From Treponema sp. (GTDB lineage Bacteria; Spirochaetota; Spirochaetia; Treponematales; Treponemataceae): 43,085 bases of DNA. The notes below the pieces were generated by a model. That model saw nothing but the letters and a program-made list of their open reading frames with translations. It did no database searches and was not told where the DNA came from. Shown here in pieces: positions 30,947 to 33,115 of this stretch. Position 1 is the first letter of the stretch; each line of letters starts with the position of its first letter. The translations under genes and the position numbers were made by a program. Location of the stretch: contig JAILKG010000281.1 of assembly GCA_024693915.1 (NCBI GenBank), positions 1 to 43,085 of the forward strand. Direction: 5' to 3'.

Positions 30947-31486
30947 CCCTTCCATATAGTGAAATACTACTATATAACGCATTTTTATTCAACAAGAGGG
31001 ATTCTTTTCTGAAGTGTGGGGGAAAGAGGTAAAAATTCCAGTAAAAAAGGAAAGAGGTGCAAAGCCTGGTAGGAAAAGTAAGAGCAGGACAAAGGCAGGA
31101 AAGCTTTTTGGTTATTGGAAAGTATTATAAAGAGACCGGAAAGAAAGGCTGTGTGCGCGCCTATGGAGCGGTTGCCGCCTGCGGCAAGGCGAGCGTTTTT
31201 TTTTGAGTCCTGCATGACTTGAGCTTAAAATCCACTGGTGAAAAAAAGACAGTTTTTTGAGATATAAGAAGCGAGACCGAGCGTTAGCGGGCCGCGGAAC
31301 AGGCGTAGGTGAAGGGGGTCGCACCCTAAAAAAAAGAAAAAAAGCCGGTGAAATAAAGAGGATAGGCCTGGGAATTAACAATATGGGCCCAAGCATTATA
31401 AAGTGGAATTTTTGGCATGGGCCGCTAAACACATTTTCAAAAATGTAATTATATGATAAAATGCAGTTTCATTAGGTTATGAAAAT

Positions 31487-31526: not shown

Positions 31527-32297
31527 ATGAAAAAAATTATTGGAATTTTTGCCGCAGTAATGGCACTTGCATCTGTAGGTTGTTCAAAAAAAGCTCAGGT
31601 TCAGATTAATTCTGCTGCTGACCTGGCTGGAAAAGTAATAGGTTGTCAGGCTGGAACCACCGGAGAAATGTACGCTCAGGATGAGTCTGGAGCAAAAACT
31701 GTAAAATCTTTTAAAACAGGAATTGACGCTGCTCTTGCCCTCAAAAATGGTGCAATCGACGCTATCGTTCTTGACGAGCTTCCTGCAAAAGAAATCGTAA
31801 AAAGAAATCCTGATCTTGTAATTGTGAACGACCAGTTTTCTTCTGAAGAATACGCTATTGCTGTAAAAAAAGGAAATACTGAACTCCTTGATTCTGTAAA
31901 CAAGACAATTGCTGCTATTAAGGAAGACGGAACCTACGAAAAACTTATCGAAGCTTTTATGCCTGTTGATGGAAATATCGTAATTCCTGAAGTTGCCCTT
32001 GTAGATTCTAAAGAAGTTATCAGAATGGGAACAAATGCTGCTTTTCCTCCATTTGAATATGTTGAAGGTTCTGAAGTTGTTGGTTTTGACGCTACAATGA
32101 GCCGTCTGATTGCCCGTGATTACGGAAAAAAATTGAACATCATCGACATGAGCTTTGACGGACTTATCGCTGCCCTTCAGGCTGGTTCTATCGACTTTAT
32201 TGCTGCAGGAATGACTGCAACTGATGAAAGAAGACAGAATGTTGATTTTTCTGAGCCATATTACAAGACAAATCAGGTAATTGTAATCAGAAAATAG
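31527..32297 (+). CDS. Amino-acid ABC transporter substrate-binding lipoprotein with circularly permuted SBP_bac_3 fold
   Basis: Lipoprotein-like signal ending GCSKK. Lobe-II block (SAADLAGKVIGCQAGTTGEMYAQ...AIDAIVLDELPAKEIV) and terminal helices (YAIAVKKGNTELLDSVNKTIAAIKEDGTYEKLIEAF) precede the lobe-I block (VIRMGTNAAFPPFEYVEGSEVVGFDATMSRLIARDYGKKLNIIDMSFDGLIAALQAGSIDFIAAGMTATDERRQNVDFSEPYYKTNQVIVIRK*). Confidence 0.9.
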   Translation: MKKIIGIFAAVMALASVGCSKKAQVQINSAADLAGKVIGCQAGTTGEMYAQDESGAKTVKSFKTGIDAALALKNGAIDAIVLDELPAKEIVKRNPDLVIVNDQFSSEEYAIAVKKGNTELLDSVNKTIAAIKEDGTYEKLIEAFMPVDGNIVIPEVALVDSKEVIRMGTNAAFPPFEYVEGSEVVGFDATMSRLIARDYGKKLNIIDMSFDGLIAALQAGSIDFIAAGMTATDERRQNVDFSEPYYKTNQVIVIRK

Positions 32298-32452: not shown

Positions 32453-33115
32453 ATGTGGAACAGTTTTTACGAAACTATGATAGCAAAGGGAAGATGGCTC
32501 TTGATTCCTAAGGGATTGGGAACTACTCTTCTGATTGCAATTTGTGCTGTGCTTATTGGTTCCGTTCTGGGCTGCATATTTGCACTTTTTAAAATTTCAA
32601 AAAACCGATTTTTGAGGGGCTTTGCGGAATTCTATACAACTGTAATCCGCGGAATTCCTATGGCTACTCAGCTGATGATTTTCTATTTTGTTATTTTTTC
32701 ACCAATGGGAATGTCAAATGCTGTGGTTGTTGCCATTATTGCCTTTGGAATTAACTCCGGTGCTTACTGTACAGAAATTTTCCGTGCAGGTATTCAGGGA
32801 GTTGATAAGGGTCAGAATGAAGCCGGTCGTTCCCTTGGACTTACCTGGTGGCAAACTCTGGTAAAAATCATTCTTCCACAGGCTATCCGAACCTCTCTTC
32901 CTACCTACACAAGTGAATTTATTACTCTTATAAAAGAAACTTCAGTTGCCAGTTTTATTGCAGTTGTGGATTTGCAGAAAGCCTGCGATAACATCAGAAA
33001 CGCAACTTATAATGCCTGGATTCCTCTTCTTTCCTGCGCGGTAATCTATCTGTGTCTGACTGTAGGCCTTACAAAGATTTTTTCTATTCTGGAAAGACGC
33101 TTTATCAAGGCTTAG
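32453..33115 (+). CDS. Amino-acid ABC transporter permease (HisM/GlnP family)
   Basis: LGTTLLIAICAVLIGSVLG, TVIRGIPMATQLMIFYFV, GINSGAYCTEIFRAGIQGVDKGQNEAGRSLGLTWWQT, ILPQAIRTSLPTYTSEFITLIKETSVAS (EAA loop). Confidence 0.95.
   Translation: MWNSFYETMIAKGRWLLIPKGLGTTLLIAICAVLIGSVLGCIFALFKISKNRFLRGFAEFYTTVIRGIPMATQLMIFYFVIFSPMGMSNAVVVAIIAFGINSGAYCTEIFRAGIQGVDKGQNEAGRSLGLTWWQTLVKIILPQAIRTSLPTYTSEFITLIKETSVASFIAVVDLQKACDNIRNATYNAWIPLLSCAVIYLCLTVGLTKIFSILERRFIKA

Follow-up and report, generated by a model that had tools for sequence, protein, structure and literature searches.

The gene at positions 31527-32297 of a 43,085-nucleotide stretch of DNA from a gut/rumen-type spirochaete, Treponema sp. 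(contig JAILKG010000281.1; the whole stretch is referred to below as the window) raises the question of whether an amino-acid-binding protein whose segments are encoded in exchanged order can be a working member of its family, and how it came by that order. The ORF, located on the + strand as are its parts and the permease gene described below, starts with ATG, contains no internal stop and encodes 256 residues. Its product is a confirmed SBP_bac_3 (PF00497, family 3) lipoprotein with both segments swapped: lobe II and the C-terminal part of lobe I come first, followed by a linker and by the N-terminal part of lobe I. Residues 1-19 (31527-31583) comprise the signal peptide and the lipobox cysteine (ASVGC19), as read from the sequence, lipidation being predicted only. 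Lobe II (residues 26-103, 31602-31835), located mid-protein in canonical members, forms here the mature N-terminus, as delineated by canonical alignment and the AF2 model. The C-terminal part of lobe I (residues 104-146, 31836-31964), assigned by alignment with canonical C-termini and by AF2, comprises the hinge strand crossing back and the two usual C-terminal helices. A linker of ~17 residues (residues 147-163, 31965-32015, VDGNIVIPEVALVDSKE) then joins the old C-terminus to the old N-terminus. Finally, residues 164-256 (32016-32294; PF00497 model positions 1-92 and AF2) correspond to the canonical mature N-terminus, which is here C-terminal and ends exactly at the first hinge crossing. The covalent cut affects the first hinge crossover only, the second being retained, and each 256-residue chain contains one lobe I-N and one lobe II.

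The PF00497 profile scores the protein at 126.9 bits, well above the gathering threshold of 26.4, and matches it twice (total E 5.4e-37): model positions 1-92 align with residues 165-256, while positions 97-130 match upstream of them, at nt 31755-31961. The colinear order of the family (lobe I-N, lobe II, lobe I-C) is not met and no colinear full-length match is returned, in contrast to the single colinear match of an unpermuted ortholog (residues 25-239, model 1-130) used as a control. Judged by sequence homology, the window protein is a member of SBP_bac_3 and a topological variant of it; chance resemblance was ruled out, as PF00497 matches 63 out of 63 aligned permuted homologs. A phmmer search of the PDB likewise reports canonical family-3 proteins as two swapped stretches. 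The closest solved relative in this search, TmArgBP (6svf, E 9e-49), aligns its residues 7-104 with residues 160-256 and its residues 113-226 with residues 30-144. Canonical chains in general align with the lobe II block from about their residue 96-113 onward, and residues 6-95 of GlnBP (1ggg) match residues 166-255 without a gap, giving the register for GlnBP counterparts. The initial annotation had proposed swapped SBP_bac_3 blocks, the new ends of the chain being placed at the hinge between the lobes and the old ones connected by a linker. Of the outcomes that it named as refuting, neither a colinear full-length profile match nor a misassembly occurred, and the AF2 model is confident. The reversed profile stretches and swapped PDB matches bear out the order, and the canonical alignments support the placement of both pairs of termini; its block composition needs one correction, the first block being lobe II plus the C-terminal part of lobe I.

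Among solved chains, the GlnPQ SBD1-SBD2 tandem (6h30) alone can be aligned with the window protein from one end to the other; the alignment spans the junction between its two units, where the lobe order reads as the permuted order. The same tandem ranks first in Foldseek, a sequential aligner, whose global TM-scores against single canonical SBPs stay below 0.5. However, GlnPQ and other multi-SBP proteins contain two complete canonical units, whereas a single unit is found here, and the definition of a GlnPQ-like tandem (at least two complete SBD units per chain) is not met. No solved permuted family-3 chain was found with several queries.

An artificial junction near nt 32016, introduced by assembly or binning, might be suspected since the window is one contig of a fragmented draft genome of 332 contigs. 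This possibility is negligible: the identical order occurs in dozens of independent assemblies, some of them of 1-2 contigs or finished, and purifying selection acts along the whole ORF (dN/dS 0.064 between the window gene and an 89% identical ortholog). A pseudogene was rejected as well. Full-length colinear homologs sharing the permuted order are present in 73 of the 146 genomes sampled from the genus (50-89% identity), several of them 1-2-contig assemblies, in Treponema saccharophilum DSM 2985 (71% identity), in at least 9 further genera of the same family and in three more spirochaete families (f10, f31 and f18). The window permutation is not unique, as a spirochaete clade shares its order and independent counterparts exist in other phyla. 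In two f31 spirochaetes (G386 and G407; L222 and L223), the permuted SBP is 72-75% and the permease 80-83% identical to those of the window, and this operon was likely acquired horizontally. The other PF00497 proteins of the window genome are distant. Among them, L001 is canonical, with a single colinear PF00497 match, and the identity of L001 and L002 is at most 36% per lobe. Four genomes of the genus also carry ORFs of ~1000 residues with several SBP_bac_3 units (G100:C76, G036:C2, G047:C8 and G113:C129), possibly multi-domain receptors.

The structure prediction, computed with AlphaFold2 (AF2) from an alignment of the 63 permuted homologs, is confident (pLDDT 91.4, pTM 0.84) and displays the expected order of elements, without permutation-aware superposition or ligand. 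Lobe II is modelled as strands and helices from E37 to E97, and the C-terminal part of lobe I as E97-109, H118-133 and H136-144; the linker is ordered, with a pLDDT of about 85-88, and the pLDDT is 96-97 in E246-255, the hinge strand that now forms the C-terminus. The model of an unpermuted ortholog, built as a control, is weaker (pLDDT 79.5, only 15 sequences in the alignment) and aligns colinearly with canonical SBPs (E 1e-27). The ligand residues expected of SBP_bac_3 (Arg, Asp and GTT loop) are all present. Thr44-Thr45 (31656-31661) belong to the GTTG loop, which is established as binding the carboxylate in family-3 SBPs; among the 63 permuted homologs Thr45 is invariant and Thr44 is at least 90% conserved. 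Asp83 (31773-31775), the counterpart of GlnBP Asp157, is invariant in the same set; its role as amino-group ligand follows from family knowledge. Arg235 (32229-32231), equally invariant, is the counterpart, in the 1ggg register, of GlnBP Arg75, a carboxylate ligand.

TmArgBP forms swapped dimers. Given that it is the closest solved relative and that the linker could permit an exchange, the permuted chain might, instead of closing as a monomer, function as a domain-swapped or intertwined dimer. We consider this very unlikely in view of the compact model with its high pTM, ordered linker and two confidently predicted hinge ends, although only a monomer was modelled.

Downstream of the gene, ORF 32453-33115 encodes a HisM/GlnP-type amino-acid ABC permease (PF00528 and TIGR01726, both above cut-off). 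A permease of this type sits directly downstream of permuted and unpermuted orthologs alike, and in nearly all loci of sufficient length the distance to it is between 1 and about 350 nt. In relatives, a GlnQ-like ATPase usually comes next. It is missing after the permease in the window genome, where the best ATPase match (65%) lies on another contig (G000:C308:5198-5914, L284); the family criterion of a HisM/GlnP permease and a GlnQ-like ATPase is fulfilled, with an ATPase that is adjacent in most relatives and unlinked here. Seven deep-branching permuted homologs (L101, L102, L103, L104, L127, L148 and L227) have no matching permease in the DNA examined; they are possibly orphan SBPs or sensors, and not all permuted homologs need be importers. 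Upstream of the gene, the intergenic stretch 31140-31345 has a G+C content of 50% as compared with 40%, and about 17 full or partial copies of it occur elsewhere in the genome (the best being 81% identical over 192 bp); it is an interspersed repeat.

The observed order, conservation, operon, selection and predicted fold lead us to the reading, to which we give a probability of about 90%, that the gene product is a functional SBP of family 3, lipid-anchored and circularly permuted in a single event of duplication, fusion and trimming, which closes on an amino acid and feeds the permease encoded at 32453. Its function and the effect on the hinge are inferred, in the absence of binding data. The chain would start at the first hinge crossover, end at the hinge and fold as an ordinary two-lobed flytrap, with the ~17-residue linker spanning the old termini, which would both lie on lobe I and be adjacent. 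It would close on the amino acid between Thr44/Thr45 and Asp83 on one side and Arg235 on the other, and hand it over to the permease, power being supplied by an ATPase from elsewhere in the genome. Of the two covalent hinge crossovers only one would be left, and the hinge would be where the lipid anchor enters. The ligand is inferred to be a polar or basic amino acid; that it is of the arginine/glutamine type is only a guess.

The mechanism of origin is also an inference. The swapped order would result if the gene were duplicated in tandem, the copies fused and the outer halves trimmed away. The required type of precursor exists: in related spirochaetes (L228, 3644-5143; L229, 3623-5122), two unpermuted SBP genes lie in tandem, separated by 15 nt. 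A tblastn search for half-gene relics of the duplication beside permuted and unpermuted genes returned none that were convincing.

The permutation may instead have been selected because tethered SBPs benefit from a lipid anchor that is attached at the hinge or lies far from the ligand site, an advantage that was proposed for TpMglB-2. Such a permuted type I SBP does occur in the same bacterial family (PMC4990184), and 52 of the 63 aligned permuted homologs have a lipobox-like motif and are predicted lipoproteins. However, the remaining 11 have no lipobox, and each of the 15 unpermuted orthologs that occupy the same slot of the operon carries one and is a predicted lipoprotein, so that lobe order and anchoring are uncoupled. 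The lipid anchor is not the whole reason for the permutation, and selection for anchoring remains an unlikely explanation.

These unpermuted orthologs bear on the direction of the change. They occupy the same operon slot as the permuted gene in about 15 congeners (L050-L059 and L131-L135), have the canonical order and are 65-78% identical to the window protein (64-80% for the lobes). The permease, where found, lies 1-117 nt downstream and is 72-82% identical to that of the window. As far as the old N-terminus, the linker of the permuted proteins (AFMPVDGNIVIPEVALVD-SKEVIRMG) corresponds to their C-terminal tail (AFMPVDGEIKVLSVEDL-stop), whereas canonical relatives end at the last helix or with unrelated ends, and outgroups lack such a linker-like tail of 13-15 residues. 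Whether built from the two lobes, from the permease or from lobes and permease combined, the trees place the unpermuted sequences among the permuted ones, and with a spirochaete outgroup (f25) the root splits two permuted clades, one of which holds them. In the rpoB tree, unpermuted species stand at about four positions, all inside one genus, and the unpermuted G055, G097 and G135 are sister to the permuted G000, G110 and G081. Since the unpermuted orthologs nest in the permuted clade and end in a linker-like tail, they probably represent a reversion to the canonical order.

Alternatively, the unpermuted orthologs of the genus could be ancestral, a single permutation having given rise to all spirochaete permuted proteins without any reversion. 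The unpermuted sequences form almost one clade, and a single clade of all permuted sequences is not rejected by AU tests (p=0.277, 0.26 and 0.124). This history nevertheless has a likelihood 10-16 units lower, and none of 200 bootstrap trees (0%) has a single change of order. It also has to accommodate the nesting found in all trees, a tail that matches the permuted linker and is absent from canonical outgroups, and unpermuted species scattered within one genus while the permuted order extends across many genera and families. We therefore hold a single permutation to be doubtful but still possible, and because the AU tests do not reject it (p 0.12-0.28) the odds in favor of reversion are only roughly three to one. 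The simplest reading is that the order was permuted once, early in the spirochaete clade, and that one sublineage later reverted, the reversion being spread by transfer.

The permuted order is also found outside the Spirochaetota. It is common in the Bacteroidota: of 297 genomes searched with a profile, 47 match at E <=1e-12, and lobe II precedes lobe I in all 30 of the 30 loci fetched; in one Bacteroidia sequence (L013) the permuted SBP is fused to a permease. Forms seen among these loci (L242-L271 and L013) are single proteins of ~260 residues, tandem II-I units and permease fusions, often side by side. In the Bacillota, L272 and L273 are hinge-permuted. Other Bacillota proteins display different breakpoints: L275 (1390-2196) and L279 (654-1550) lack the first ~30 residues of lobe II at their start and carry them at their end, and L278 (1213-2070) starts near lobe II position 68 and ends with positions 10-71. 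In the tree, L272 groups with canonical proteins (support 100/97), and L273 falls among the forms with other breakpoints (98/95). AU tests reject one common origin for all hinge-permuted forms (p=0.0099) and also the placement of L272 in the spirochaete clade (p=0.003), while an origin shared by Spirochaetota and Bacteroidota is not rejected (p=0.18). With moderate confidence, we favor the view that permutation at the hinge point has occurred repeatedly, and can be undone, in the evolution of the commonest family of amino-acid-binding proteins. It would have been gained independently in Spirochaetota, Bacteroidota and Bacillota, the last also having further breakpoints, and one Treponema sublineage would have returned to the canonical order, its earlier linker being kept as a C-terminal tail.

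In binding proteins, circular permutation mostly serves the engineering of biosensors. The family-3 proteins TmArgBP (6svf), AncQR (4zv1), GlnBP (1ggg/1wdn) and HisJ share with the window protein both lobes, the ligand-contact residues and an operon with a HisM/GlnP permease, but only the window protein is permuted at the first hinge crossover, with its old termini joined by a linker. The type I/type II domain dislocation is reportedly an ancient strand-order change within a lobe. Both it and the present case alter topology in the PBP superfamily; the dislocation, however, is not a circular permutation within one recent family. PMC12718374 cites Fukami-Kobayashi 1999 for it. Natural permutation of a binding protein is already known. 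Tp0684 (TpMglB-2) of T. pallidum, of type Ic (cluster Bc), is a crystallised permuted type I glucose-binding lipoprotein of an ABC importer that binds and closes normally (PMC4990184) and comes from the same bacterial family as the window protein. Its cut lies inside the N lobe of a type I (cluster B) sugar fold and adds a fourth hinge crossing (PMC4990184), whereas the window protein is a type II amino-acid SBP of PF00497, cut exactly at the hinge and losing one of two crossings, which does not fulfill the type Ic definition (type I sugar fold with a split N lobe). This type I precedent goes beyond the initial annotation, which named no natural example. For family 3, no report of a permuted SBP was found in the open-access literature. 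As far as open-access papers tell, a family-3 case cut exactly at the hinge, recurring at several breakpoints and having close canonical orthologs, is new.

The wide spread of the permuted order implies a different topology for many proteins that carry the annotation of an ordinary family-3 SBP or appear as split partial-domain matches. Permuted and unpermuted orthologs in one operon slot constitute a natural experiment on hinge cutting, by which the role of the two covalent hinge crossings in closure, affinity and permease docking becomes directly testable.
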